DNA of 64,000 nt. It comes from Chaetoderma sp. LZ-2023a. Its lineage: Eukaryota; Mollusca; Caudofoveata; Chaetodermatida; Chaetodermatidae. The notes below the pieces were generated by a model. It did not search any database and was not told the origin of the DNA. It saw only the letters and a list, made by a program, of their open reading frames with translations. A program made the translations under genes and the position numbers. The stretch covers positions 82,445,426 to 82,509,425 of the forward strand of contig CM067367.1 in assembly GCA_034401795.1 (NCBI GenBank), given 5' to 3'. Shown here in pieces: positions 6,469 to 53,760 of the stretch (positions within the stretch are counted from its first letter, which is position 1; each line of letters starts with the position of its first letter).

Positions 6469-8493
6469 GTCCAAGGGCCTGTGACGCTCACCTGGACCAT
6501 TAGCATTTGAAACATTTGCATTTAAATATACATGATTCGCTACATTAAACAAGATGGGGAAACAAATTTTCACAGGAAAAATCTACCAATCAAAATTCGG
6601 AATGGAAGTTCTGGCGCCTATGATTATCGTATCATTTTAGCTATAAATTTGGTTGAAATTGCTCAAAGTAGTAAGAAGGAATTTGACAATTTCCGGTAAA
6701 TTTGTAATAAAATGTCAGATTTTCACCCCAAAAATTTGATGAATCAAAATTCTGTATGAAAGCTATGATAATAGGATCGGATCCTTTTTGGCCATATTTG
6801 CATGAAATCAGTTACGTTGACAAGAAGCAATTTGAAAATTTGTCATAAAATCTAATATTTTCACACAAACAATTGATGAATCACAATTCAGAAAAATCTT
6901 CACCCAAAAATTTGATGAATCAAAATTGTGTATGGATGTTCTAGAGCCCATCACCACAAGATCCTTTCAGCCAAATTTGATTGAAATCGCTCAGAATGGG
7001 AAGAAACAATTTGACAATTTCCAGTATATTTTTCATAAAATCTAAGATTTTTTTCACACCAAAAATCGATGAATAAAAATTCCAAATGGCAGTTCTAGAT
7101 CCTATGGCCATAGGATCCTTTCAGTCAAACTTGGTTAAAATCGTTCAGAATGGTAAGAAGAAGCGATCTGACAATTTCTGGTACATTTTTCATAAAACCC
7201 AAAAAATTGAGGAATCAAAATTCTGAATTGAAGTTCTGAGGCCTACGACCATAGGGTCTTTTCAGCCAAATTTGGTTGAAATTTCTCAAAAAGCAATTTG
7301 ACAATTTCCGGTAGATTTTTCATAAAATCTAAGAATTTTACCCAAAAAGTTGATGAATCTAAATTCTGAATAGAAGTTCTGGAGCCAACGATGATAGGGA
7401 CCTTTCTGTCAAATTTGATTGAAATCGCTCAGAATGTTAAGGAGAAGACGCAATGTGACAATTTATGGTACATTTTTCATAAAATCTCAGATTTTCACCC
7501 AAAAAAAATTGAGGAATCAAAATTCTGAATTGAAGTTCTGAGGCCTACGACCATAGGGTCATTACAGCCAAATTTGGTTGAAATCGCGCAGAATGGTAAA
7601 GAGAAGCATTTTGAAAATTTCAGGTACATTTTTCATAAAATCTAAGAATTTTACCCAAAAAATTGATGAATCCAAGTTCTGAATGGATGTTCTGGAGCCT
7701 ATCAACTATTGTGTCCTTTCACCCAAATTTGGTTGAAATTTCTCAAAATGGTAAAAAGAAGCAATTTGACAATTTCTGGTAGATTTTTCATAAAATCTCA
7801 GATTTTCAGCCAAAAAGTTGATGAATCAAAATTCTGAATAGAAGTTCTGGAGCCAACGATGATAGGGACCTTTCAGTCAAATTTGATTGAAATCGCTCAG
7901 AATGTTAAGGAGAAGAAGCAATTTGACAATTTCTGATACATTTTTCATAAAATCTCAGATTTTCAACCAAAAGATTGATGAATCAAAATTCCGAATGGAG
8001 GTTCTGGAGCCTATGATCATAGGGCGCTTTCAACCTAATTTGGTTGAAATTGCTCAGAATGGTAAGGCGAAGAAGCATTTTGACAATTTCCGGTACGTTT
8101 TTCCTAAAATTTAAGATTTTCACCCAAAAAAAATTAATGAAACAAAATTCTGAATGGAGGTTCCGGAGCCTATGACGATTGGGTACTTTCAGCCAAATTT
8201 GGTTGAAATCGGTCAAAATGCTAAGGAGAAGAAGCATTTTGACAATTTCCGTGAAACTTTTAATAATATCTAAGATTTTGGCCCAAAAAATTGAGGAATA
8301 AAAATTCTGAATGGAGTTCTGGAGCCTACGACGATAGGGTCATTCCAGCCAAATTTGGTTGAAATCGGCCAAGTGGTTAATGAGGAGTAGTGTTTTAAAG
8401 CAAAAGTTGACGACGACAGACGAAGGACAATGGACGGACAGACGATTGCCATGGCATAAACTCACTTGGCCATTCGGGCCAGGTGAGCTAATG
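6469..8493 (+). mobile_element. Pearl/CvA-like non-autonomous element with tandem core (Helentron-related)
   Basis: It starts with 'aacaagaaggtccaaggg' and 'gctcacctgg', and ends with 'cacttggccattcgggcc', 'aggtgag' and CTAA. The end forms a small stem (TTGGCC/GGGCCAG) a few bases before CTAA and is followed by T, as expected for a Helitron-type 3' terminus. The centre is about 12 tandem copies of a ~153 bp AT-rich monomer. A conserved head, a tandem core and a conserved hairpin tail match the bivalve pearl/CvA elements and DINE-1-like Helentron derivatives. It has no coding capacity. The class is inferred from structure alone. Confidence 0.6.
6590..8400 (+). repeat. Tandem array, ~153 bp monomer, about 12 copies
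   Basis: The phrase 'ccaaatttggttgaaatc' recurs at roughly 150-155 bp steps (about 6,650, 6,980, 7,270, 7,570, 7,728, 8,040, 8,190, 8,345, with decayed copies between). Each monomer also carries 'gaatcaaaattctgaatg', 'ctatgaccataggg' and 'gacaatttccggta'. Copies differ by many substitutions and small indels, so the array is not freshly amplified. Confidence 0.92.
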
Positions 8494-10455: not shown

Positions 10456-10795
10456 TGCATATTCACACTAAATGCTTGAAAATAAAATTGTTAAAATTGA
10501 ATACTTTTAGAGGCTTAAATTATTTGGCTAGATGTAAGTAAACGAAATAAATGTTAACATATAATGATTTCGTTCCCTATAAAGTAATATTATTTTTTTT
10601 AGTTGTGAAATTGAATTAGAGGCACGAGCCTCTAATTCAATTTCACAACTCAAAAAATTATATTAATTTATATGGAATTAAATCATCATATGTTAACATT
10701 TATTCTGTTTCTTTATAGCTAGGCCCAAAGTTTAAGCCTCTAAAAGTACACAATTTGGATAATTAAATTTTTAAGCATTCTGGTGTGAATATGCA
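10456..10795. repeat. 340 bp palindrome (fold-back element) centred near 10,624
   Basis: The left arm starts 'tgcatattcacac' and the right arm ends 'gtgtgaatatgca'. The inner arms 'agttgtgaaattgaattaga' and its exact complement are perfect, with a loop of only a few bases (ggcacgagcc). Outer arms are imperfect ('ttttagaggctt', 'aatgttaacata' and partners). It is absent from the paralogous position near 9,250, so it is an insertion. Confidence 0.85.
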
Positions 10796-10890: not shown

Positions 10891-11043
10891 TAGTCCAGTA
10901 AAACTACCAATTAACCTAGAACAAATTGCAACAGAATTTATTTCTTTTCTGCGGCATTCATGGGACTGCCAGGTGTCACATATCAAAAGTCCTCCAAAAT
11001 CCCTCGATGGGAAAGTGGGTAAATTCGCATATTTAGCTACCGC
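10891..11043 (+). repeat. Left terminal inverted repeat of the Academ-like transposon
   Basis: Matches the reverse complement of 16,070-16,233 in blocks: TAGTCCAGT, 'gaacaaattgcaaca', 'tatcaaaagtcctccaaaat', 'ggaaag' and 'gggtaaat'. Identity is about 70% by eye, with higher conservation in the named blocks, which are likely transposase-binding sites. Confidence 0.85.
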
Positions 11044-11363
11044 CATTATCCGAATAATGAAACTTCCCTTACCTGCTTCATTCCGCAAATAAACGAAGTA
11101 TAAATGTTGTCTAAGCTCTGAATTTCATGGTCACGGAAGACAGTAAGCAATTGGCAATATTGCCGTGAACCACTTGTACAAATTCTCCAAACCACAGATT
11201 AAATATGGTTGTATGCACAGGGCCGGGGTAATTTAAAAAAATTATATTTAAAGTAAGTTTAATTTTGTTTTTCGCTTTTAAAATTTTATCTAAAATAAAT
11301 TGCATTTTAATTTTCACTTTTATCTCACAATTTGAATAAATCTCTATACAATTCAATCAGAAT

Positions 11364-14300
11364 ATGGACATGGATTTAGATACATGCGTTATTTGTAACC
11401 AGAGCCTAGAAAATGGCTCACAAACTGTTAAGCTTCGAGTTAAAGGCTGTGACGGTATTAACAATGCTAGCAGAGCCTGTGAAAGCGATGTCATAGCTGA
11501 AGTAGGACAGAGGGTTCATGTAAAATGTCGACGGGAGTTCATTGATCCCAAGCGGATTGCCCGTGACGCAGAGAAAATTGAACAATCTCTGCCACCCATG
11601 CGAACACTCCGTTCAGAAAGTCCAACATTCAATTTTAGTGAACATTGTTTGCTATGCGGATACCCTGCAAAAATTCAAGATGGAAAGAAACGTGGCTATG
11701 ATATTTATCCAGTAAGTACTCATGACTTTCAATGTAGTATCGCCGAGGCCTGTGAGCAGTGAAAAGACGAATGGGGCAAACTTGTAGCTGGGCGGCTTGC
11801 CTTCATGCCAGATTTATGCGTTGTCAATGCAGTATACCATCAAAGCTGCAGCGTAAATTTTCGAACCATGAAAAATATCCCTCAGCTGCACTCATCTTGC
11901 TCATCCCAAAAACATGGAAGGCCAGAAGACTTGGACAGAGTAAGAGCATTTAGTGCGACAATGGCATTTCTTGAAAATAATGATGATGAGCAGCTGACCC
12001 TGCACGACCTCGTTAATAAAATGCAAGAGTATCTCGATGATAAAGAGAATAAAGCATACAGTACAAAATACATGCAAGATAAAATAAAGGATAATTATGG
12101 CGATGAAATATTTATTAGCACTGTGAATGGTAAGCCAAACGTTGTTACCCTTCGTTCTAAAGCATCTACTATTTTGACTGACTTCTATAAGGAACAGAAG
12201 AGAAAGGATTCCAAATCAGAGAGCATGCTAATCATCCAGACAGCTGCCAAACTGCTTAGACACGATATTAAGTTAATTGATTCATGCACATCATCTGAAA
12301 GCTATCCATCAAGGGAGCAAATGAGCAACCCAGTAAAGGCATTGAATTATTTACCACAGACACTGCGGGAATTATTGCGGATTTTGTTTACTGGAAAAGA
12401 CACAGAAATGAAACAGGCATCAGTTGGACAGGCTATTATGCAAGGAACTCGTCCTAGAGTTATTTTGGCACCTTTGCAGTTCGGGCTGTCATGTGAGATG
12501 CACCATAAATTTGTATCTAGATTTATTGTTGACACCTTGTACAAGCACAGATTTGGATGTTCATACGCGGAGATACAGAGGTTTGAGCGCAGTGCATCAC
12601 TTCATGGTGGAGATCTACCACAGCCATTATCAGGCGAGTTCATTCAGTTTGTTGCCGACAATGTGGATCACAATATTTGCACAATAGATGGGCATAATAC
12701 ATTTCATGGAATGGGAATCATTGCATCTGTTACACCAGGAAACCTTTCGTGCAAACTTATTCCAAGGATAAATGTAACATCTGAAGATATCAAGCAAGTT
12801 GGCAAGATCTGTATCAGGAACTTTGAGTCTCAGCATACCAGGAACTTCCCATTGACCTTTAAGGAGTTAACTGCGATGGAACAAACAGACCCAACAGCTG
12901 ACATTGACATCCTCTGGGATTTCTCTTTGTTTCTGCGTTCAAGGAGACAGTCATGGTCTGGCATGATGCAAACTGTTCACCAAGGAGTTTATCCAGGTAA
13001 ATTGTCTGTTATTTTCCTTCCGATGATAGATCTAGAGCCAAGTAACATGACCTGCATCTTTTCCACTTTGACTTATGTTTGTGAACAGGCAAACCGATAC
13101 CATGTTGCACCCGTGATTACATTTGATCAGCCCTTATATTGGAAAGCTATGACTATCATAGAGATTGGGCCGAGCTGGAGTCCATTAAAGCAAATTATTC
13201 TAAGACTCAGAGGTCTTCATATGGAGATGAGCTTCCTTGGCTGCATTGGTCACTTAATGGCAGGAAGCGGTCTTGCGCCTATTCTAGAGGTAGTCTACGC
13301 TGAGAATGCTGTCAAACACATTCTTAGTGGAAAGGCGATTTCTCGAGCAGTTCGAGGACACCTCATGGTTTTTGCTTCTCTCAGTACAATCTTGATTGCA
13401 AATGCATACAACCTACCACTACCTACACTTGCAGATGCTGAAGTTGACACAGTAGAATATTCCGCTGCAATGCATTCAAAAGAATTGTTTGACAATGATG
13501 ATAATGTTGCAGGACATGAAACGATTGAAAGTTCCCTAAATAAAAGTCTGGTTAAAGTTGGAGAGCTCTATGATGACATTATCAAAAATCTGTATGTAGC
13601 TACAAGATTGTCCTCGGAAAATGCATTACATGATGTCAAGGACAAACTAGACTCAGAGAAGGTGGTCATGAAAGATAAGAGGACTGCACGACTCTGGCTT
13701 TTGTATATGGAGTTGGTTGACATTCTGCGCAAATTCATTAAGGCAGAACGAACTGGTGATTGGAACATGCACCTTCAGACCGTTCGTGAGATGCTTCCAT
13801 ATTTTGCAGCCGCTGGGCATAATCTGTACGCCAAGTCTGCATATGTATATTTACAAAAGATGTTAGAAATCCCTGAAAGTCATCCAGATATACACACCAG
13901 CTTCCTCAATGGTCATCATGTCATTCATCGAAGTGATAGGTATTGGGCAGGGTTATCTACTGATCTAGTTATTGAGCAGGTCCTTATGAGAAGTGTAAAG
14001 TCAAGTGGTGGTCTAACACGAGGTCATGGAATGACAGAACTTCAGCATCTTGTTTGGTTGTTGTCTATGCCCGCATGTGCAGATGTGTGTAATGCAATGC
14101 AAGAGCTCTCTGGGGTAAACTGTGATTCAAGTGAACAACACAAAGATTCCACACAATCTCGAATAAAGCGTGATATGGATGATACTTACAAAATTATCAA
14201 AATCCTTAGTGAACTGAATCCATTTGGACCAGACCCTTCTCTTAGAGGACTTGTTAGTGGATTGTCTGCACATGAATCAGTCAATGTTGACGATGCTAAA

Positions 14301-15791
14301 GATATTGGAGAATCAATTATTAATTCGATGTGTGGCCAATGTGTATCAAGCATTTCGTTCCAGAGAAAGAGACAAGCTATTAACTTAGCATCCAAAACAT
14401 CTCTCAAGATTGATGATGAATGTGTACAAATTGATCCACAACTCCTATTTCAAAGACTCAGTTTAATTGCTACAAATGGATCAAAGGGGAATCCAGCATC
14501 TTATTTTGAGTATGAGTTGTGCACTCATCCGCCCGCACTCTTTGATAATTCATCTCTTCCATGGGAAGCAAATAAGCCGGCACTTGCTGATGCATTGTGG
14601 AAATTAATTCAAAATGAAGATGCAGTCCTTCCAGATTCTGTCCACTATGTGCTTGATGGAGGAGCTCTATTACACGGTGTTCCATGGCAGCGTGGAGAGA
14701 CATTTGCAAATGTTTGTCAAAGATATGTAAAATATTGCATAAGCAAATATGGAAAGGCTACAGTAGTTTTTTATGGTTATGACCAAGGCCCAGACATAAA
14801 AGATGTAACACATAAGAGGCGAACTCGTGGATCAGGCGCAACTGTTGTACTGACTCCGCAAACAGTTGTAACTCTGAGTAACAAACATCGGTTCATATCA
14901 ATCTTAAGTTCATCTCTCGAACAGGCTGGATGCTTAACGATAAAGGCAAGCGGTGATGCTGATGTCTTAATTACGCAAACGGCTATCTTGGCTTCAAAGT
15001 CAACAAATACTGCTCTTGTTGGAGACGATACCGACCTACTGGTGTTGCTTCTATACCATACTGATATGAATGGCTGTCAGCTATTTTTCAGACCAGAGCC
15101 AAAGCAAAATGCAAAGAAACCCCGACTGTGGAATATCAAAATGGCAAAGGAAAAACTCGGGTTCTGTTTGTGCTCACAGCTGTTATTTATCCATGCTATC
15201 CTTGGCTGTGACTCAACATCTAGGCTTTCTGGAATTGGAAAATCTGCATCCCTTAGCAAAATCCAGTGCTGCAAAGAACTCTCTCAAATTGCTGAAGTGT
15301 TTACAATGACTAATGCGAATAAAGATGACGTGATAAAAGCAGGTGAGAAGGCAATGCTTATTCTATACAATGGCACTTCAATGGATAGTCTAGTTGCTTT
15401 GCGGTACAAGCGATTCAGGGAGAAGGTTGCAAAAAGTTCCAAGTATGTTGAAGCACAAGATTTACCACCAACACCCGCATCCGCAAAGTTTCACAGTCTT
15501 CGCGTGTACTACCAAATTCAAGTTTGGAGAGGAGATGCTGGAGATATGGATCCAACAGAATGGGGCTGGAAAGTTCTCAACCACCAAATGCTGCCTGTTA
15601 AGACTGACATGCTGGCAGCACCTGACGATTTACTGTATACATTTAGATGCAGCTGCAAAACTGGCTGTGAATCAAAGAGATGCACCTGTAGAAAACATGG
15701 GCTCAGCTGCACATCCGCCTGCGAAGACTGTAAGGGTCTCAGTTGCTCGAATTCAATAATGCTCATTGAGGAAGATGACTTGGATAATTGA
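11364..15791 (+). CDS. Academ-like transposase with XPG/FEN1-like nuclease and CXC domains (one internal TGA)
   Basis: One frame of 1,475 codons with a single TGA (codon 133, 11,760-11,762). The start MDMDLDTCVICNQ is chosen because it opens the frame just after the AT-rich leader and precedes the first Cys pair. Domains: Cys pairs at residues 8-11 and about 95-98, then HxxxC near 155-160. The DDE-type core has ADNVDHN (about 431), TFDQPLYW (about 585), FLGCIGHLMAGSGL (about 620) and LEVVYAENAVKHILSGKA (about 641). The XPG/FEN1-like domain has LDGGALLHGVPW (about 1,098), GDADVLI, VGDDTDLLVLLLYH (about 1,219) and GCDSTSRLSGIGK (about 1,281). The tesmin/TSO1 CXC block spans about 1,428-1,465 (CSCKTGC, RCTCRKHGLSC). 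The predicted role is nuclear excision and insertion of the element. Downstream of the stop, a 1,342-codon frame stays open, with a usable Met at 11,805. Assignment of individual catalytic residues is inference. Confidence 0.85.
11760..11762 (+). other. In-frame TGA inside the transposase frame
   Basis: Context is TGT GAG CAG TGA AAA GAC GAA TGG. The frame is open on both sides and the protein reads as continuous family sequence across it, with Arg expected from my memory of homologues. CGA to TGA is the commonest CpG-decay change. A canonical GTAAGT lies just upstream (11,712), but the AG partners nearby (11,737, 11,759, 11,787, 11,811) either give an implausibly short intron, leave the TGA in place or shift the frame. 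Splicing is therefore not a convincing explanation. Confidence 0.85.
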
Positions 15792-15876
15792 TGCAAGATG
15801 AAATTAGTAGAAACCAGGTACCTATGCCATACTATTTCATCTTAGCTTAGCTTAGAAACACACAATACCGTGACAT

Positions 15877-15882
15877 AATAAA
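15877..15882 (+). promoter_or_regulatory. Likely polyadenylation signal (AATAAA) of the transposase gene
   Basis: AATAAA lies 86 bp after the stop codon, inside the AT-rich 3' part of the transposon. A second AATAAA occurs near 16,050. No downstream GU-rich element was evaluated. Confidence 0.5.
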
Positions 15883-16069
15883 ATATAATATGTATTGTAT
15901 CAATATCGATGATGGTATTAGGTAAATTCATGCAAGTGGCATAACACAATACATTTAATTTGTGGAGAATATGTCAATCGTATTCATTTATTACTAAAAA
16001 AAAGTCCAAAAATACCCAGTCACACATATATTACATACCGGTTTTAAAGAAATAAAGAAAAAATGGCCC

Positions 16070-16233
16070 AAATCTGGTAATAATTATGCAAATTTTACCC
16101 TTTCCGCTATTGGAATTTTGGAGGACTTTTGATATGTTGTACATGATGGCCCCCTATACACTGGGCGAGGTAAAAAAATTATGTTGCAATTTGTTCCGGG
16201 TTAAAATATTTTTGGCCTAGATTGACTGGACTA
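16070..16233 (-). repeat. Right terminal inverted repeat of the Academ-like transposon
   Basis: Reverse-complement partner of 10,891-11,043, with 'attttggaggacttttgata', 'gttgcaatttgttc' and the terminal CTGGACTA, followed by TTA. Confidence 0.85.
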
Positions 16234-23379: not shown

Positions 23380-24470
23380 AGTCATCCTTATGAAGTGTCA
23401 AATCGATCCGTGAAATGGTCAAGGATGTATCATCCAGAAACCAATTTTCAAGATGGCCACCCCTGACTGGCGGCCATATTGGATTTTGGATTATCATAAA
23501 TTTCGATAAGTTTCTTCACCAGACATATTTCAACCACCCTATGAAGCGATCCAATAAATGTTAACTGAGATATCATCCAGAAATGAACTGGCTGCCATCT
23601 TGGAGTTCAGATCATCATCAATTTCAATACATGTATGTTTCTTCTCCAGACCTAGTCCAATCACCCTATGAAGTTTCAGAAGCGATCCGATAAACGGGAA
23701 CAGAGTTATCATCCAGAAACCAATTTTCAAGATGGTGGCCGACGGCCATCTTGAATTTCAGATCATTGTCAATTTTGATAGGTTTCTTCTCCACGTATAG
23801 TCCAACCACCCTATGAAGTTTCAAAGCGATCCGATAAATGGTAACAGAGTTATCATCCGGAAACCAATTTTCAAGATGGCCACCAGTGGCTGGTTGCCAT
23901 CCTGAATTTCGGATCATCGTTGATTTCGATAGGTTTCTTTCCCAGACCTAGTCCAACCACTCTATGAAGTTTCAAAGCGATCCGATAAATGGTAACAGAG
24001 TTATCATCCGGAAACCAATTTTGAAGATGGCCGCCAGTGGCTGGCGGCAATTTGGATTTCGGATCATTATTGATTTCGATAGGTTTCTTCTCCACATGGA
24101 GTCTAACCACCCTATGAAGTTTCAAAGCGATCCGATAAATGGTAACGGAGTTATCATCCGGAAACCAATTTTCAAGATGGCCGCGGGTGGCTGGCGGCCA
24201 TCTTGGATTTTGAATCATCGTTATTTTGATAGGTTTCTTCCCCAAACATAGTCCAACCACTCTATAAAGTTTCAAAGCGATCCGATAAATGGTAACTGAG
24301 TTATCATGAAACCAATTTTGAAGATGGCCGCCGGTGGTTGGCGGCCATCTTGGATTTCGGATCATCGTCGATTTCGATAGGTTTCTTCCCAAGACCTAGT
24401 CCAACCACCCTATGACGTTTCAATGCGATCCGATAAAGAGTAACAGAGTTATGATCCAGAAACCACCATT
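23380..24470. repeat. Tandem array, ~149 bp monomer, about 7 copies
   Basis: 'gataggtttcttc' recurs at about 23,500, 23,635, 23,786, 23,929, 24,077, 24,229 and 24,377. Each monomer includes 'tttcaaagcgatccgataaa', 'gtaacagagttatcatcc' and a near-palindrome 'aagatggccgcc..ggcggccatctt'. The centre copies are the most alike, as expected of arrays maintained by unequal exchange. Confidence 0.92.
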
Positions 24471-26984: not shown

Positions 26985-27720
26985 GGTGGTAGTGCCGTCA
27001 GTAGTGAGGTGAATCGAGGTTACAGTAAGGTGGAACCAGTAGCAAGGTGGTGTCAGTAGTGTCAGGGGAAGCCAGTAGTGAGGTGGAACCAGTAGCAAGG
27101 TGGTGTCAGTAGTGCCAAGGGAAGCCAGTAGTGAGGTGGAACCAGTAGCAAGGTGGTGTCAGTAGCATCACGGGAAGCCAGTAGTGAGGTGGAACCAGTA
27201 GCAAGGTGGTGTCAGTAGTGTCAAGGGAAGCCAGTAGTGAGGTGAAACCAGTAGCAAGGTGGTGTCTGTAGTTTCAAGGGAAGCCAGTAGTGAGGTGGAA
27301 CCAGTAGCAAGGGGGTGTCAGTAGTGTCAAGGGAAGCCAGTAGTGAGGTGGAACCAGTACAAAGGGGGTGTCAGTAGTGTCAAGGGAAGCCAGTAGTGAG
27401 GTGGAACCAGTAGCAAGGGGGTGTCAGTAGTGTCAAGGGAAGCCAGTAGTGAGGTGAAACCAGTAGCAAGGTGGTGTCAGTAGTGTCAAGGGAAGCCAGT
27501 CAAGGGAAGCCAGTAGTGAGGTGGAACCAGTAGCAAGGTGGTGTCAGTAGTGTCAGGTGAAGCCAGTAGTGAGGTGGAACCAGTAGCAAGGTTGTGTCAG
27601 TAGTGTCAAGGGAAGCCAGTAGTGAGGTGGTGTCAGTAGTGTCAAGGGAAGAAAGTAGTGCGGTGGAACCAGTAGCAAGGTGGTGTAAGTAGTTATGGGA
27701 AGCCAGTAGCGAGGTAGAAC
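26985..27720 (+). repeat. Minisatellite, ~53 bp unit, about 13 copies
   Basis: The unit is 'gtgaggtggaaccagtagca' + 'aggtggtgtcagtagtgtca' + 'agggaagccagta'. Copies are 90% or more alike in the middle and decay at both edges. One unit near 27,490 carries a duplicated 'agtcaagggaagcc', and one near 27,620 lacks the middle, showing unequal exchange or slippage. Confidence 0.95.
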
Positions 27721-28300
27721 CAGTTCAGTACAGAAACAGATCCAGTAGGAGCCAAATAAAAAGTTTTGTCCTCATACATCAGAGGCAAGGTGAATATAGA
27801 CATTGAGATGGATCCAATATTGAAGTCAGGATCCAGTATTGAGGTTGTCTCTGTAGTGAGGTTGATCCTGTATTGAGGTGGGTCCAATATTGAGGTTGAT
27901 CCTACAGTGAGGTGGATCCAGTAGTGAGCTCGTACCTGTAGTGAGGTGGTGCCTATAGTCAGGTTGATCCAGTGGTGGTGAGGTTGATCCAGTAGTGGTG
28001 AGGTTGATCCAGTAGTGGTGAGGTTGATCCAGTGGTGGTGAGGTTGATCCAGTAGTGGTGAGGTTGATCCAGTATTGAGGCGAGTCCAATATTGAGGTGG
28101 ATCTTATAATGAAGTACATCCAGTCATGAGGTGGATCCAGTTGTGAGGTGGATCCAGCACTGAAGAGTATCTAATATTACGGTAGATCCAGTATTGAAGG
28201 GGATCTGGTGCTGAGGTGAATCCAATAGTGAGATGGATCTAGTAGCGACGTGGCTCCAATAGTGAGGTGGATCCAGTAGTGGGTTGTTGTTACGGCTGAC
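27721..28300 (+). repeat. Degenerate minisatellite, ~17-18 bp unit
   Basis: Variants of 'gaggttgatccagtagtg' repeat some 25-30 times, cleanest at 27,960-28,075. The shared 'gtgaggtgg..ccagtag' word suggests this is the ancestral unit from which the 53 bp minisatellite grew. Confidence 0.9.
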
Positions 28301-33251: not shown

Positions 33252-34090
33252 GTGGTGATTTTGCAAAGTTTTTTCTCGGAAAATCCAATTTTCCTAAAAA
33301 AATTTGATTTCCCGAAACAATCAGCAAGACAAAAGCTCAATACAAGGTGGAAAACACATGTAAACCATCAGGTTGTGGAAACAGATTCAGAAGATGAATA
33401 TGTATTCAATATAAGCAGCGGTGTTGAAATGTTGCAGCAACCTAAATTTTATGGTAGTATAAATCACAATCCAGTTATCAGTACTGCTGATAGTGGTGAA
33501 ATGTGTAACATATTGGATATGACAGCATACAATTCTATGAACCCCAAACCTAAACTAATGCTTACAAAAACACAGATCAGACCCTATGGTGGTAAACCAT
33601 TACATGTATTGGGAAAGTTTAATGCACGCATTGAATCGCGTGGTAAAATGGTCAAAGATAAGTTCTATGTAGTCCTAGGTGGAAAATCATCTCTGTTAAG
33701 TTTTCTTAATTCAAGGTAACTTGGTTTAATAACTGTTGCAGATCATGTGATAAAAAAGAATGTAGTACACAGTGTATGCGGAAATGGTGTTGCAAACAAG
33801 TACATCAAAAAACATCCAGAACAGGTCCATCTTATCGGTAAACTGGAAGGTTATCAAGTTCAATTGCATATCGATGACTCTATTCGGCCCATAGCGCAAC
33901 CAGATCGTAGAATTCCTTTCCACCCTAGGAAGAAACTTCAAGCTGAACTGGAGAGATTGGAGGAGATGGATATCATTGAAAAAGTCAATGGTCCAACTCC
34001 CTGGGTATCGCCCATTGTTATTATTCCAAAACCAAAGTGTCAAAATGAAATTAGGATGTGTGTGGACATGAGGCGACCAAACAGAGCTGT

Positions 34091-34157
<67 letters not shown>

Positions 34158-35200
34158 CACGTGACCCCGACTGTCCATGACATTCAGAATAAGCTGAATG
34201 GAGCTAGTAAATTCTCAAAGTTAGACCTCAAGAATGGCTACCACCAGCTAGAGCTTGATCCTGAGTCGAGAAACATCACAACTTTCTCAACTCACATAGG
34301 TCTGAGGCACTACAAAAGTTTATCCTTTGGCGTAAACAGTGCTTCTGAAGTGTTCCAGAATGTTATTAGTCAAGTGATCGAGGCATAACAGGTGTCATCA
34401 ATGTATCAGATGGCATTCTCATCTTTGGTAACGACCAAGCATCTCCTTATAGCAACATTTGACAGTCTGATTCAGAAAGGTTTGACTTTAAATGCAGCCA
34501 AATGTGAGTACAATAAGTCATCACTTGAATTTTTTGGATTTGTGTTTTTTGAGCAAGGAATGTCTCCAGATCCACGGAGAATTGAATCTTTAACCAATAT
34601 GTCAGAGCCAAAATCAAAACAAGAAGTTCAAAGTCTACTAGGTATGGTGAACTATAGTGCGAAATTTATCCCAGATTATTCCACAGTTACAGCCCCTTTA
34701 AGAAAGTTGGCATGCAAAGATGTCAAATTTGAGTGGCGCAAAGAACAGCAAGAAGCAGTTCAGAAGATTAAGTCAGTTCTGTCTTAGAAACCAGTTTTGG
34801 CATATTTTGATGTGGAGAAACAAACAGAAGTGATTGTTGATGCATCACCAGTGGGCCTAGGTTGTGTTTTGGTGCAGTACAGTGTACCAGAAAAGTCAGA
34901 AGTTGTGGCATATGGTAGTCGATCGTTAACCCAAGTAGAACAGAACTATTGTCAGCTGGAGCGTGAGGTGTTAGCTGTAGTCTGGGCTTGCGAGTATTTC
35001 CATCTATACACATATGGTTACAGTTGTAACAGATCACAAACCACTGCTGGGTATGTATGGCAATGACAAGGCCAAATTGCCAACAAGACTTGAGCGCTGG
35101 TCCCTCAGGCTACAACCATATGAGATTAAGTTGGTGTACCATAGTGCTAAGAGTAACCCAGCTGATTATTTGTCTCATCATTCGTATAGAATAGAGGACA
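33252..35200 (+). pseudogene. Gypsy-like element: protease, RT and RNase H region
   Basis: The protease-like part has 'ISTADSGEMCNILD'. RT is marked by 'RIPFHPRKKLQAEL', 'PWVSPIVIIPKPK', 'SKLDLKNGYHQLELD' and 'FFGFVFFEQGMSPDP'. RNase H has 'VDASPVGLGCVLVQ' and 'LTQVEQNYCQLEREVLAVVW', and ends near 'SNPADYLSHH'. These are standard blocks of metazoan Gypsy pol proteins. The (GA)n tract at 34,094-34,156 lies in the RT region. Fossil, broken. Confidence 0.85.
34094..34156 (+). repeat. (GA)n microsatellite within the Gypsy-like element
   Basis: About 31 uninterrupted GA units. Confidence 0.95.
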
Positions 35201-35509
35201 ATTCCAGAGAACAGAAAATAGCAGAGGAATATATAGATTTCATTTGCAACGAAGTGGTCCCAAAAGCAATGTCATTGGAGCAAGTTAAAGAAGAAACTTG
35301 TAAGGATGTGACGTTGAAGTCAGTAGTTCAGCTCATCAAGAATAACCAATGGCATACAATTGACATGTCGAGACCAGATTACTATGTTTTGCTGTCATTC
35401 AGCAAGCTTCGGAATGAGCTAACAGTCTACCTTGAGGAAGATTTAGTTCTGAAGAGTAATCGAGTAGTATTACCCGCAAGTCTTCAAGAGAGGGCTGTTG
35501 ACCTTGCCC

Positions 35510-36652
35510 GTTAAGGTCATCAAGGAATCAACAAAACCAAAGCCTTGTTGAAAGAGATTTGGTTTTCTGGTATAGACAATATGGTAAAAGCGAAAGTAGA
35601 ACAATGCCATGCCAAGCCAATGTGAGTGGTCTAAAAAGAGAGCCAGTACAGATGACAGAGCTGCCAAATGGTTCATGGAGAGAACTTAGCATTGACTTCT
35701 GTGATCCATTTCCACATGGTAATTACCTTTTAGTCGTCATCGATGATTACAGTTGGTATCCAGAGGTGGATTCTGTTCGATCAACATCAGCCAGGATTCT
35801 AAAGTTGGATAGAATCTTTTCAACTCATACCAGAGATAGTAAGGAGTGCTAATGGTCCTCTCTTTCAAAGCAAAGAATTTCGTGATTTTGCAGAGAGATA
35901 TAGTTTCAAGCATCGGAGAGTAATCCAGTATTGGCCAGAAGCTAATGGCGAGGGCGAGAGTTTTATGAAACCCCTTGTGAAAGTGTGTGTAAGTCAGCCC
36001 AGCTTGAAGGGAAACCTTGGAAGCAAGAGACGTTCTCCTTTCTCAGGAACTACCATGCGACTGCACACAGTACAACAGGTCAGTCTCCTGCAACAGTATT
36101 GTTTGACCGACCCATCAAGACCAAGTTACCAAAACTTAAGTCAAAGCCAGATGATGTCGAGTTCAGAGCTAGAGAAGAACAAGAGTAAGATGAAGAGCTA
36201 TGCAGATATGCGCAGAAATATCAGAGACTCTAAGTTGTCTATCGGTGAGAAGGTGATTTTGAAGAACCACAACAAAGGCAAACTGCAGCCACATTTTTCT
36301 ACAGACCCATTCCAGGTGATTGGTCTGAAAGGTTTTATGGTCATTTGCCAGAGAGGCGGTGAGGTAAAGGCTAGAAATAGTTCACATGTCAAGCTGGTGA
36401 CAAGTTCTGAAGAACCAGTTCTAGTTGAAGATGACTGTGATGAAACTGGATCCGAGATGCAAGAAGTTCCATTGTCAGCAAATTCTCCTGAGCTGCAAGA
36501 AATTCCAGTGTCAGCGGATGCTCCTGTGTTGGGTGACTCATGTCTATTGCCATCAAACTGATAATAGTAATACAGTAGTCCGTCGTGATTCATCTATGTT
36601 TACCCAGAAACTAAATATCCCAGTAAGATTCAAGGATTACATACTTACCTAA
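35510..36652 (+). pseudogene. Gypsy-like element: integrase and pol C-terminus
   Basis: An HHCC-type start ('GHQGINKTKALLKEIWFSGI') is followed by an integrase core with 'ELSIDFCDPFPHGNYLLVVI', a 'LFQSKEFRDFAERYSFKH' block and a C-terminal 'KVILKNHNKGKL' region. The pol end 'RFKDYILT' is typical of Gypsy pol tails. The integrase of the family inserts the DNA copy. Fossil, broken. Confidence 0.82.
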
Positions 36653-47026: not shown

Positions 47027-47523
47027 CAGATTTGATCAGTAACCTGGTGGGAAGGGGCAAGCCATAAATGCTACTTTTGCCCCATGGAGAAAGATTTAGA
47101 CTTATAACTTGACTAACGGAGACCTAAAAGGACCGTCAAGTTTACGGAACCGAATCACATTCGCATCACTGCACCCCCCCCCTTTTTTCTCCTAAGAAAA
47201 GGGAGAGAACTCACGAACATGTATCTCGCCTGAAACACAAATATGCCAAGAGGGTTAACTGCTCCTTGCATATTCACATGTATTAGCCTGGGAATGAGCA
47301 TGAATATATAAGATGAATGAACATGATATATAGACATAATACAAAAAACTCTCACTATTGAATTACCTTATGATAATTGGACTTCAGACGTACCGCCTCC
47401 AACCATTCACCGGTTCGGCCATCAGTGACACAATCTGGTTGACATCCTCTCGCCTGACCATGCCTGCTTTAGGTTCTTTTCTTACCAAAGTGAAAAAAGG
47501 GTGAAGAGCAGTGTGGTCACTAA

Positions 47524-48945
47524 CTATCGTTTCAAAACAGCTAAGGCGAGTGGATTGGCTGAGTCTGACACATCCCTCATATAGTAATCCGTAAATGAGG
47601 ACTCACAGTGCCATTGTGCAATGGCCATGATGTACTCTAACGGAACAGCACTGTAAAGGGCGGTCGAGGCGGCTATTCCTCTAACATCATGTGCCCTTGC
47701 GCATTGCACCTGGTCCCCAGTCGCCATCTCATGAGTAGTCTGAATGCATTCGACTACCCAACGAGAGATAGTATCCATGGATGCGGCGCCATAAGGCTTC
47801 TTATGGCAGATCCACAGATGTCTATCGTTCGACCATAACGAGTCAGTCCGTTTTCTGTAATTAGTCAAAGCACGGACCGGGCACCAGACACTGGCATCAC
47901 GATCAAACCTTGTTAACTTCGGTATTATGATCGGTTTGCCGGGATATCTCAAAGATTGATTCTTTGACATAAACTCTGCACTTGGCAGAAGACGCAAACC
48001 CTCTCAGGAGACAATAAATTGGTCCCTCTCTGCCGAAAGCGCATGGATCTCACTGCGCCTTCTAGCTGAGGAAGCTGCCAATAGAAAAACCGCCTTTAGA
48101 GTCAAATGCTTTAGACTAGCCAAACGCAACGGTTCGAAAGGGTGCTTGGCCAGTACATTAAGCACTAAAGATAGACTCCAGGCTGGAATGACTACCGGTT
48201 GTCTCGGTCGGAGATTGCTCATTCCCTTCACCATCACATTTAACTGGGCCACCTCTGGACTATCCCTGTTGGCTAGACAAGGGATAACTGATGCCAAAGC
48301 TGACTTGTATCCAGCAATTGTGACGGGAGCTAGTCCTGAAAAGAACAGCTCACAGAGAAAGTCTGCTATTTGCTGAATAGTGGATTGAAAGGTATCAATA
48401 CCCTTTTCTTCACACCAGTCTGCAAATCTGTTAACCTTGTTGTTATATGACTTGAAGGTTGACCACCTTCCCGCAGCCGCGATGAAATCAGCAGCCTGTC
48501 GAGAAAAGCCTTCCGACGTGGAACGTTGTTTGATAACATCCACGCAGTCAATTTGAACATTTCGGGACACTCGTGTAGGAAGCGTCCCTTGGCCTGGGAG
48601 ATTATGTTCGGAATCTCGGGCAACTGCACTGGCTTTTCCACCAGCAGATCTAGCAGATCCGTGAACCACGCCCTGCTTGGCCAATACGGCGCTATTAGCA
48701 GGACTAGACACGGTTCCACCCTGATCTTCACCAATACCTTCGGCAGAAGGATGGTGGGTGGGTACGCGTAAGCGTGCATCCCTCTCCAGCTTATCGCCAG
48801 AGTGTCTGTATCGACGGCATTTGGATCTGGAATCGGCGATACATAAGTCATGATTTGAGCATTTTCCCTTGTGGCGAACAATTCCACATTGGGTTTTCCC
48901 CAATGCTCGAAGATCCTTTGTAGAACTGGAGGGTTGAGAGACCAT
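47524..48945 (-). pseudogene. DIRS copy 2: tyrosine recombinase region
   Basis: About 47,524-48,380 encode a tyrosine recombinase. The N-terminal SAM-like part has 'STFKSYNNKVNRFADWCEEK'. The first Arg box is ASSARRRSEIHAL, the HxxR box is ARAHDVRGIAAS, and the Tyr box is FTDYYMRDVSD, so the R-H-x-x-R-Y set is recognisable. The part above 48,380 overlaps the distal pol domain in another frame. In DIRS elements this enzyme inserts the circular DNA copy. Fossil, broken. Confidence 0.85.
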
Positions 48946-50312
48946 TCTGTTGGCAGAATTCTCTGTCTGCGAGACAAAGCATCCGCCAGAATGTTCAATC
49001 GCCTAGGAATGTGAGCTGCTTTCAAAACAACCGAGTAATTCCTGCACCACTGAATCAAGTGCCACACCTTGATACACAGTGTGGGTGACCTGGTCCCGCC
49101 TTGGCGATTTATGTATGATACTACCGTCGAATTGTCCAACTGTATCAATATCACCTTGCCCCTGATCATCGGAAGAAACTCTTCCAACGCCAGTTCCACT
49201 GCCATCTATGCAGCTGACTCTCCTGGAGAGTCCATGTGCCCGAGACCTGGTGTTCTCCCAGGCAGGCCCCCCCCACCCCTCCAGCGATGCATCCGTGTAT
49301 ACAGACAGCTGGAGATGGGGTAGGTGCAGCAAAACCCCTATTAGGAGATCCTGACGCTGTTTCCACCATACAAGATGCGACATTATCGGCTCCAAAACTG
49401 GCACCAGTTTTGACAGGGGTTTTGTTCTCTGTTTCCACAGAGACATCAGATACAACTGGATAGGTCTTCGCATTAGAGCAGCGTACGGGATCACTTGCTC
49501 CATGGAGACCATCATGCCCAGCATCTGAAGAAACTGCCTCGCCTGAATGTGGTTTCCCACTCGAAACCTCCTGAGGCTGGCTAACAGAGACACCACTCTG
49601 GGCTCTGACGGGTAAACCCTGCCCTCCTCGAGATCGAATCGCATCCCCAAATAAACGAAATGTTGAGTGGGTGTCAACTCGGATTTCTCCTTGTTGACTA
49701 TCCAGCCTAGATCTGAAAGTAACTTCAGAGTCAGAGCAGTATCCACGTTCAACCTGGCTGCTGAGTCTGCCTTTATCAGCCAGTCGTCTATGTAGGTGTG
49801 TAGCGCCACGTTCTCTTTTCTGAGAAACGCTGTCACCGCAAGGACAACTCTTGTGAAAACCCTCGGAGCTGTCGACAAGGCCAAACGGGAGAACAGTAAA
49901 CTCCCATACTTGATTCTGAAACGCAAATCTCAGAAACCTGTGACAACTCCTGTTCATAGGAATGTGGAAATATGCATCTTTCAGATCGATCGACACACAC
50001 CACATTCCCTTCCTCAATCCCGCCATTACCGACCTCTGTGTTTCCATCTGGAACCGAGGCGTATGGATAAACCAATTTAATGGCCTGAGATTGAGCATGG
50101 GTCTCCATCCCCCTGTGCTCTTGGGGACAAGGAACATATTTGAATAGAAGCCTGGCGTGTTCGGGTTCGCTGGTTTTATTGCTCCCTTCAGAAGCAAACC
50201 CGACACTTCGTTTTGAACGGCTTCTAACTTGTCTGGTTCCCGTGGTACGGGTGTCCAGACAGGTGCCAAAGACAGATTCTGCAGCAGAAAGTCCCACCAC
50301 TCCGGCATGTGA
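48366..50312 (-). pseudogene. DIRS copy 2: RT/RNase H/distal pol block, second occurrence
   Basis: It contains 'SIDLKDAYFHIPMNRS', 'LHTYIDDWL', 'VYLGMRFDLEEGRVYPS', 'QLDNSTVVSYINRQGGTRSP' (RNase H) and 'LIAPYWPSRAWFTDLL'. Almost the whole block repeats, highly similar, at 50,317-52,140. Fossil, broken. Confidence 0.82.
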
Positions 50313-50316
50313 CCGC

Positions 50317-52230
50317 TCGAGAAAAGCCTTCCGACGTGGAACGTTGTTTGATAACATCCACGCAGTCAATTTGAACATTTCGGGACGCTCGTGTAGGAAG
50401 CATCCCTTGGCCTGGGAGATTATGTTCGGAATCTCGGGCAACTGCACAGGATTTTCCACCAGCAGATCTAGAAGATCCGTGAACCACGCCCTGCTCGGAC
50501 AATATGGCGCTATTAGCAGGACCAGACACGGTTCCTCCCTGACCTTCACCAATACCTTCGGTAGAAGAATGGTGGGTGGGTATGCGTAAGCGTGCATCTC
50601 TCTACAGCTTATCGCCAGAGCGTCTGTATCGACGGCATTTGGATCTGGAATCGGCGAGACATACGTCATGATTTGAGCATTTTCCTTTGTGGCGAACAAG
50701 TCCACGTTGGGTTTGCCCCAATGCTCGAAGATCCGTCGCAGAACTGGAGGGTTGAGGGACCATTCTGTTGGCAGAATTCTCTGTCTGCGAGACAAAGCAT
50801 CTGCCAGAATGATCAATCGGCCAGGAATGTGAGCTGCTTTCAAAACAACCGAGTAATTCCTGCACTATTGAATCAAGTGCCACACTCTGATACACAGAGT
50901 GGGCGACCTGGTCCCGCCTTGGCGATTTATATATGATACTACTGTCGAATTGTCCGACCGTATCAATATCACCTTGCCCTTGATCATCGGAAGGAACTCT
51001 TCCAACGCCAGTTCCACTGCCATCATTTCCAACAGATTGATATGCAGCTGACTCTCTGGGAGAGTCCATGTGCCCGAGACCTGGTTTTCTCCCAGGCAGG
51101 CACCCCACCCTTCCAGCGATGCATCCGTGTAGACGGGCAGCTGGGGGTGGGGTAGGTGCAGAGAAACCCCTAATAGGAGATTCTGACGCTGTTTCCACCA
51201 TAGAAGATGCGATATTATCGGCTCCAAAACTGGCACTTGTTTTGACAGGGGTTCTGTTCTCTGTTTCCACAGAGACATCAGATACAACTGGATAGGTCTT
51301 CGCATTAGAGCAGCGAACGGAATCACTTGCTCCATGGAGACCATCATGCCCAGCATCTGAAGAAACCGCCTCGCCTGAATGTGGTTTCCCACTCGAAAAC
51401 TCTTGAGGATGGCTAACAGAGACACCACTCTGGGCTCTGACGGGTAAACCCCGCCCTCCTCGAGGTCGAATCGCATCCCCAAATAAACGAAATGTTGAGT
51501 GGGTGTCAACTCGGATTTCTCCTTGTTGACTATCCAGCCTAGATCTGAAAGCAACTTCAGAGTCAGAGCAGTATCCACGTTCAACCTGGCTGCCGAGTCT
51601 GCCTTGAGCAGCCAGTCGTCTATGTAGGTGTGTAGCGCCACGTTCTCTTTTCTGAGAAACGCTGTCACCACAAGGACCACTCTTGTGAAAACCCTCGGAG
51701 CTGTCGACAGGCCAAACGGGAGCACAGTAAACTCCCATACTTGATTCTGAAACGCAAATCTCAGAAACCTGTGCCAACTCCGATTCATAGGAATGTGGAA
51801 GTATGCATCTTTCAGATCGATCGATACACACCACATTCCTTTCCTCAATCCCGCCATTACCGACCTCAGCGTTTCCATCTGGAACCGAGGCGTATGGATA
51901 AACCAATTTAATGGCCTGAGATTGAGTATGGGTCTCCATCCCCCTGTGCTCTTGGGGACAAGGAACATGTTTGAATAGAAGCCTGGAGTGTTTCGGTTTG
52001 CTGGTTTTATTGCTCCCTTCAGAAGCAAGCCCGACACTTCCTTTTGAACGGCTTCTAACTTGTCTGGCTCCCTTGGTACGGGTGTCCAGACAGGTGCCAA
52101 AGACAGATTTTGTGGTGGAAAGTCCCACCACTCCGGCATGTAACCCTGGGATAACCATCCCAGGACCAGACTGTCTGACATCACACCTCGCCAGGCCTCG
52201 ACGAAACGCATGAGCCTTCCACCCACCATA
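50317..52230 (-). pseudogene. DIRS copy 2: RT/RNase H/distal pol block, first occurrence
   Basis: Same order as the block at 48,366-50,312: 'LSLAPVWTPVPREPDKLE', 'STGGWRPILNLRPLNWF', 'SIDLKDAYFHIPM', 'LHTYIDDWLLKAD', then 'VYTDASLEGWGACLGEN' and 'SDNSTVVSYINRQGGTRSP' of RNase H. The start of the next block falls where this one's distal pol domain begins to repeat. Fossil, broken. Confidence 0.82.
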
Positions 52231-52439
52231 GACGCCTCAACGTCTAACGGAGTTGTCCGGCTCGCAGTCCACTCTCCCCCCCCCCCGCTTTCTTAACGAG
52301 AGAGAGAGAGAACCATTTCGCTCTAGGCACGACGGGTATAACTGGCACCGCTGTTCCTGTCGCACATGTGCGGTCCAGGCGGATATGAAGGAAGCTTTCG
52401 TACCCAAAGGTACGCTTCGGCCCCTTCTGTCCACCCTTT

Positions 52440-53760
52440 GAGGCCTTACCCTTACCCTTCCCCTCGCCCTTCCCGCCTCTAGGGCGGTCAGGAGCAACAT
52501 TGGGGAGGGTAGGCGCCTCTACAACAGTCCCACTGACTGGATCCGGGCCGCGGGCAAAATCCCCATCCTGATCGACGCAACCGATGGACGGGGCGCATCT
52601 TCATCGGCCGTGGCCGAAACCACAGACGGCTCAACCCTGGCTAGCCACGCCAGAGCCTCTGATCAATCTACCTCCGATGAAGACACACCCGCAAACACGT
52701 CACCCGTTGACGTGTTCACGGGCCTGCCAGCCACGGCCTCCCGGCAAGGAGCCACGGCTGACACGCCAGGCACTCCAGTACCACACGGTTCTGTCGCCAC
52801 CCCATGAAACACTCCAGTCCATGGGGTAGGTCCGCACGGAAAACCGTATGGACCCGTAGCAGTCGCGGAACCATAGCTGGACACGGGCGCCAACGGCACC
52901 CCACGTCCGACTGCCGGACCAGGCGAGATAGGTGAGTACCACGCCCGGCCCGGCACACCCGTTCCCATGACGGCTGGTGCCAAACCAAGCTGCATGGAAC
53001 CGGTGCATGGTACCAGATTGGCCTCAGCCACAGGCGGAGCCGCTGCCCTGGCTTGCGCCAAACCAGACAAATGGAGGCCGGTTCCGTCCAGGACGGAATC
53101 AACCTCAATATTCTCCACCTGCGGCTTCACGGGCCGCAGTAACCTCTCCTCCTCGGCCTCCTCGTCTTCAGACTCCGAAGAGTCGTCACTAGACGAGTCA
53201 ACCGTGGAACCGTCCTGGCGGACAGCTCCCACACCTGACGGACCAGCCACCGCCACTGGACCACCCGGAGGTGGCCGCAGAGAAACAGAACCCATCTGGC
53301 CGGAGCCAGACGGGACTGCCAGTGGGCCGTACGAGACGGCCCCCTCGGTAACCAGTCCAGAATCCTGTCCGAGGACAGGATCCGTACCAGGCATGGGGAG
53401 AAACTGCCCCCAACCTTTGGTAGCAGGGACGATACCAGCGTGGGCAGAACGCTATGCAGAAAACCCTGCATAGCCGTAACCAAACCACGCCGGCGGTGCC
53501 ATCTCCGCCACCTCCAGCTGGGGACGTGGAGCACCCCCACCGGCCGAACCGGGCACTCAATGATTTACTCTCAGACCGCCTGACCCCGCGTCAGACCCAG
53601 CCACGTCCTTCTGGGCAAGGAACTTAACCATCATCCCAACGGACCACACTGCACAAACATTACACCTATGATCAATATTACAAAGGGAACACCTAAAACA
53701 GACATGGTCCTTGAATACGACACGGACAAACTTATGGCATTCGTCACATGATGGCGGGGC
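52440..53760 (-). pseudogene. DIRS copy 2: gag-like gene
   Basis: It has the same Cys-rich start as copy 1 (FKDHVCFRC, then HRCNVCAVW) and the same acidic 'DDSSESEDEEAEEE' stretch in the linker. It is shorter than the gag-like region of copy 1. Fossil, broken. Confidence 0.62.

Follow-up and report, generated by a model that had tools for sequence, protein, structure and literature searches.

The transposon and its locus

The window analysed here is the whole of a 64,000-nucleotide stretch from the caudofoveate mollusc Chaetoderma sp. LZ-2023a (contig CM067367.1, positions 82445426-82509425), and the element under study is a cut-and-paste DNA transposon whose transposase gene carries a DDE-like core, a nuclease-like domain and a CXC-like cysteine tail (Table 1). 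Its termini are TAGTCCAG and CTGGACTA, with TTA flanking both, and the two ends form inverted repeats in which matching blocks extend over about the first 144 and the last 149 bases, limits that were set by eye. The coordinates, inverted ends and TTA flanks given in a preliminary description of this DNA were all seen again in the window sequence.

Table 1. Coordinates, within the window, of the transposon and its parts
Feature	Start	End	Strand	Details
Whole element	10891	16233	+	5,343 bp
Left target-site duplication	10888	10890	none	TTA
Right target-site duplication	16234	16236	none	TTA
Left terminal inverted repeat	10891	11034	+	Imperfect; limits approximate, from matching arms and alignment
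Right terminal inverted repeat	16085	16233	-	Imperfect; limits approximate, from matching arms and alignment
N-terminal part of transposase frame	11364	11759	+	132 amino acids (aa), Cys/His pairs; ended by in-frame TGA at 11760-11762
Remaining transposase frame	11805	15788	+	1,328 aa; in the reading frame of the 11364-11759 open reading frame (ORF)
DDE-like core	12657	13226	+	DNVD (D285/D288), FDQP (D441), GLHME (E474); residues counted from the start of the 1,328-aa ORF
DUF6589-like stretch	13599	13904	+	Weak, below the Pfam cut-off: E 0.0024, or E 0.00059 with the piece alone
FEN/XPG-like nuclease domain	14622	15404	+	In the window, VFYG for VFDG and nine residues missing near 14880
CXC-like cysteine cluster, C terminus	15642	15746	+	

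A young family of some 900 copies

The genome-wide search for further copies that the preliminary description had proposed was performed on the 2.44 Gb assembly (2,753 contigs) and returned 924 matches to the left-end 30-mer and 923 to the right-end 30-mer at up to two mismatches, against none for the reversed-pattern controls. Target-site duplications were scored in 21 copies, namely 20 that were fetched plus that of the window, of which three had no right end in the stretch retrieved. All of the 18 two-ended copies displayed an exact 3-bp duplication and none of them an extension to 4 bp. When the ends were re-paired at random 2,000 times, 1.8 of 18 on average showed such a duplication, and never more than 9. 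Because the duplicated 3-mers were of 14 different kinds among these 18 copies, TTA is not a required target, and its use as a fixed target was ruled out. The preliminary description had made its reading depend on other copies having the same ends and a 3-bp duplication, and on this point the comparison came out in its favour.

The limits of the element were confirmed by empty sites. Joining the window flanks after removal of one TTA gave a sequence that matched across the junction, with 87-90% identity, in all of the 40 places scored out of 385 candidates. Unoccupied paralogous sites exist elsewhere, and the element was inserted into an older repeat. Pairwise differences among six full-length copies amounted to 1.0-1.9%, and their variable columns comprised 213 private changes versus 8 others out of 5,319 columns. 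This star-like variation reflects a recent burst of a young family, a recently active cut-and-paste DNA transposon with some 900 copies.

Two further sequences were noticed in relation to the element ends. At locus L027, close to a copy of the family, a different element end, TAGTCCAGTCCTATG..., has the same terminal TAGTCCAGT, and it perhaps represents a related family that uses the same end. A little to the left of the window element lies a large imperfect palindrome (10502-10748, 97-nt arms, 82%), perhaps another short repeat.

Coding capacity and decay of the window copy

The preliminary description had reported one frame of 1,475 codons; in the window this proved to be two ORFs of the same frame parted by a TGA codon. 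The N-terminal part is free of stops in seven of nine sister copies, one of which (L047) is split by an insertion, and contains a stop in L050 and L055. At the nuclease site the window copy reads VFYG, with a Tyr codon at 14772-14774, where all nine sister copies that cover the site have FDG with its Asp. The nine residues missing near 14880 are present in eight of nine sister copies, and L050 has six of them. The window copy is therefore decayed, because of the in-frame TGA, the change of Asp to Tyr and the missing residues. Its earlier characterisation as near-complete applies to the DNA of the element and, for these same three reasons, not to the gene.

Protein matches were scored for 35 of 20,873 candidates, their frames being taken as listed and not base by base. 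No stop within the match was listed for 14 of the 35 (window included), and for six of the 35 the listed frame was both free of stops and no shorter than 1,492 codons. Such a length is expected if the frame is measured from the stop that precedes the ATG at 11364 and the nine residues are counted; translation from that ATG would then give about 1,484 aa. A single protein of this size, beginning with a Cys/His-rich N-terminal part, is expected from intact copies.

The DDE-like core and the cysteine-rich tail

The DDE core was assigned by motif, not by structure, and DDE-like blocks were found in part in diverged relatives. The third acid could be E474 or, judged from the sequence, could lie instead in a block of the form IEQxLMRxxKxxGG downstream of GLHME; in the window this block contains E724 (13974-13976) within LVIEQVLMR, and relatives have E or D at that site. 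This ambiguity tells against the assignment of a DDE core, as does relative L068, which has FHLLMS and no E in place of the GLHME block. The core gave no profile or fold match to a transposase. The sole Pfam listing for the 1,328-aa ORF was DUF6589, below the cut-off, and the Pfam scans of the frame gave no helicase domain.

Of the CXC domain announced in the preliminary description, a C-terminal cysteine cluster was seen again. In the window this cluster stayed below the Pfam cut-offs, both for MSL2-CXC (E 0.24, 12 bits vs 26.7) and for TCR (E 0.56, 11 bits vs 23.5); relatives did better, with TCR found in three of seven members (best E 0.0049).

Relatives of the transposase are abundant in this genome. 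The back-translated motif HAxxGCDTT gave 920 genome matches versus one in the reversed control, and tblastn pieces were detected in 14 of 15 fetched relatives (L059-L073) at 22-61% identity, L062 yielding none. DDE, nuclease or CXC blocks recur in these relatives, most of which are decayed, and in none of them are all three unbroken. The blocks are widespread in the genome and are therefore not special to the window element. Outside it, no homologues were found in the viral contig collection, where 15 loci from a pattern scan gave no tblastn match, or by a pattern-based scan of the prokaryote contig collection.

The nuclease-like domain

The motifs on which the preliminary description based an XPG-like nuclease (LDGG, GDAD, GDDTDLL, GCDSTSR and GIGK) are all present in the frame. 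Seven acids and a GxGK block follow one another in FEN-like order and spacing in copy L049 (39/70/2/22/2/59/7) and in the diverged relative L067 (42/72/2/22/2/51/7), the window copy having Tyr at one of the acids. The invariant acids of archaeal FEN1 are spaced 53/72/2/19/2/61/8. Order and spacing of acids are no proof of a fold. A looser spacing pattern, defined after looking at the sequences, was found in L049 and L067, and shuffles of the two reproduced it in 1/20,000 and 0/20,000 cases. When a profile of archaeal FEN1 (18 of 21 frames kept) was aligned with a nuclease profile of six members, the two were in register at DDTDLL/QDYDSLL and at GCDSTSRLYGIGK/GTDYNPGGIKGIGPK. None of 200 column shuffles scored as high in one direction, and reversed sequences scored 12-14 versus 25.4 and 17.0 for the real alignments.

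Several results weigh against a nuclease of this kind. The opposite profile direction was not significant (24 of 200 shuffles were as good), the GDAD pair was misaligned in one of the two directions and not covered by the alignment in the second, and the hhalign probability was 0.3-3.3%. The loose pattern was found in only 14 of 18 archaeal FEN1 frames and was absent from the window copy and from three incomplete relatives; moreover, the match in L049 used aspartates other than the assigned ones. In a Pfam search of the window nuclease region, the check for XPG that the preliminary description had recommended, no family appeared at E <=10. XPG_I was located at three places across the genome, none of them at listed transposon copies, and phmmer against PDB gave nothing at E <=10. 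The lone PDB match of the nuclease profile was 2qip (E 0.38), which we take to be an NYN/PIN-like protein. Single members matched NYN (two of six, best E 0.0028) and Pox_G5 (E 0.049), matches that are weak because four unrelated families (CHCH, T6PP_C, Flavoprotein and FlgD) scored similar values (E 0.008-0.15). A single-sequence AlphaFold model of the window nuclease region was useless (mean pLDDT 35.6).

The XPG domain of the preliminary description survives as a remote likeness to the FEN/PIN superfamily, visible in the acid spacing and in one direction of the profile comparison, and fails where Pfam XPG_I and PDB searches are concerned. A strict XPG reading at family level was ruled out by the failed Pfam and XPG_I matches. 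From its sequence, the assignment of the domain to the FEN/PIN superfamily is probable but not proven. With the 5′ nucleases FEN1, XPG, EXO1 and GEN1 it shares a similar spacing of acids, the D...GxGK block and the register of the last two blocks. Unlike them, it is missed by XPG_I, has D-D rather than E-E as its first acidic pair and is joined to a transposase.

Classification

The best explanation overall, to which we assign a probability of roughly 0.83, is a young, high-copy cut-and-paste family of the AcademX kind, whose protein would unite a DDE-like core with a FEN/XPG-like nuclease and with a tail that resembles CXC. The Academ-like reading of the preliminary description was supported by the 3-bp duplications and by the presence in one frame of DDE-like blocks, a nuclease-like domain and a cysteine tail, blocks that recur in relatives. 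The AcademX type is the best filing on the strength of these features and of published descriptions rather than of a sequence comparison with Academ proteins, and the lack of an Academ reference protein counts against the placement.

In the available part of one study, duplications of 3 or 4 bp are given for AcademX and of 9 or 10 bp for AcademH, a difference related to the nuclease and the helicase (PMC10045372). With AcademX the window element shares the 3-bp duplication, the inverted ends, probably a DDE-type transposase with a nuclease, and a length close to 5,565 bp, the mean of Academ consensus elements in the part available of a study on bivalves (PMC10294476). No difference of kind from AcademX emerged, and the window element forms a family of its own. 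AcademH belongs to the same superfamily according to the literature, but differs, in the text available, by its 9 or 10 bp and its helicase (PMC10045372), as compared with 3 bp and no helicase in the Pfam scans here. The same portion of the bivalve study reports that Academ elements have expanded in bivalves (PMC10294476), which fits the present case and proves nothing about it. The kind of element is already known, the family is new, and what is unexpected is the size-restricted pattern of deletions described below.

What the nuclease might do

The question at stake is why one transposase should have a nuclease of the repair type besides its DDE core. Among the papers listed by the literature searches, none joined Academ and XPG, and no experimental test of an Academ nuclease was found, though one may still exist. 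The present family is recent and abundant, its ends are known and the frames of several copies are listed as open, which makes it a good start for this question.

In the mechanism that we favour, the cysteine-rich parts would bind the element ends, and the DDE core would cut the transferred strand and join it with a 3-bp stagger. On branched intermediates the nuclease would cut or trim the non-transferred strand, which would free the element without formation of a hairpin. Repair of the donor gap would fall to the host, and where it stays incomplete, as would sometimes happen, copies with internal deletions would result. Action of the nuclease on the non-transferred strand is the step judged most likely, tentatively and by analogy. 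In Tn7, TnsA works beside TnsB, and there may be a similar division of labour here, with the DDE enzyme acting on one strand and another nuclease on the second. The difference is that TnsA is a separate, restriction-type nuclease, whereas here both activities would reside in one polypeptide and the nuclease would have another fold.

A less probable course of events, close to the idea of the preliminary description, is that the nuclease acts after joining and trims flaps or gaps, either where the element has newly inserted or where the donor was broken, and in this way helps to set the 3-bp duplication. The constant 3 bp of the window family agrees with this, as does the connection made in the available text of PMC10045372 between the 9-10 bp of AcademH or the 3-4 bp of AcademX and different enzymes; a 3-bp stagger could, however, simply follow from the geometry of the DDE core.

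It is unlikely that the domain is catalytically idle, a PIN-like module kept for DNA binding or dimerisation. In favour of this, the statistical link of the domain to active nucleases is weak, and GDAD is replaced by EEAN in relative L072. Against it, the Asp lost from the window copy belongs to a gene that is also broken by a stop, and the nine covering sister copies all retain it. Changes at other acids are confined to single copies (GCE in L052, one D of DDTD in L055), and both D of DxD together with GCD are invariant in six sequences, the relatives among them sharing 26-39% identity with the first. Far down the scale stands a non-Academ DDE superfamily with 3-bp duplications that gained a PIN-type domain independently: Academ proteins did not enter the comparison, the only Pfam signal of the core was the weak DUF6589 and no mention of DUF6589 was found in the literature searched, but the 3-bp duplication, the nuclease and the long single protein fit the AcademX description in the available text of PMC10045372.

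Internally deleted copies

Large internal deletions were present in 12 of the 20 fetched copies (L040-L042, L045, L046, L048, L051, L053, L054 and L056-L058), and one more (L055) had lost 61 bp. The ten distinct two-ended large deletions span 1,542-2,387 bp, with a mean of 1,811 bp, and lie at widely different positions. In these ten copies a longer kept-left part goes with a shorter kept-right part (correlation -0.93), a negative relation that is partly an arithmetic consequence of the narrow deletion size. Independent copying from both ends was rejected as an explanation, since re-paired kept lengths gave so small a spread in 0/20,000 trials, with 10 copies as with 11. The 11-copy set was taken from 13 deleted copies by dropping L045, which has the junction of L041, and L055; it includes L058, whose kept-right length was assumed because the stretch retrieved for it lacks a right end, and the 10-copy set leaves L058 out.

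The pattern was also seen in a larger sample, made of those listed ends, all of them exact matches, that are located on contigs C1 and C2: 94 of 100 on the left side and 78 of 100 on the right. Of the 66 end pairs formed, with 28 left ends remaining unpaired, 21 were full length (14 of these measured 5,374-5,388 bp), 38 were shorter and 7 longer. These lengths run from end to end, so that an insertion can mask a deletion; losses below about 80 bp were counted as full length. With the shortfall read as a deletion, 35 of the 38 shortened copies had lost 1.1-2.65 kb, a range chosen after looking, with a median of 1.84 kb; the other three had lost 100, 227 and 4,679 bp. Where deleted copies are nearly equal in length, a single lineage may have been counted more than once. 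Uniform random breakpoints were rejected (Kolmogorov-Smirnov p 2e-8 to 7e-5). Internal markers at element positions of about 1,390 and 2,890 gave 715 and 620 genome matches, versus some 924 for the ends.

The sequenced junctions (the 10 distinct ones and that of L045) had 0-4 bp of microhomology, and the junction common to L041 and L045 was complex, with five mismatches at the best split. Junctions with microhomology are usual for incomplete gap repair. The narrow deletion size could be due to selection on length, to a property of host repair or to an effect of the nuclease. Together with the sliding positions, it may mean that repair after excision is measured by length and not by site. In that case the extent to which the donor gap is lost or refilled may be set by the flap-type nuclease or by machinery brought in by it, a suggestion to which we give little credence. 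Size-restricted deletions provide an independent and countable readout of the events that follow excision.

Other features of the window

Pieces of DIRS-like retroelements, carried by minus-strand ORFs that overlap one another, were found at 1-2600 and 47500-53500. The second region matched RVT_1 (E 2.3e-23) and RNase H (E 1.9e-5), together with a weak domain of the tyrosine-recombinase type (Phage_int_SAM_1, E 6e-4, below the cut-off). Retroelement reading frames in pieces were also found at 33252-36561 (RVT_1, E 4.4e-9), one of them containing a (GA)n run at 34094-34156. Tandem arrays occupy 6899-8367 (unit of about 157 bp), 23637-24465 (about 150 bp) and 27024-27724 (about 53 bp).

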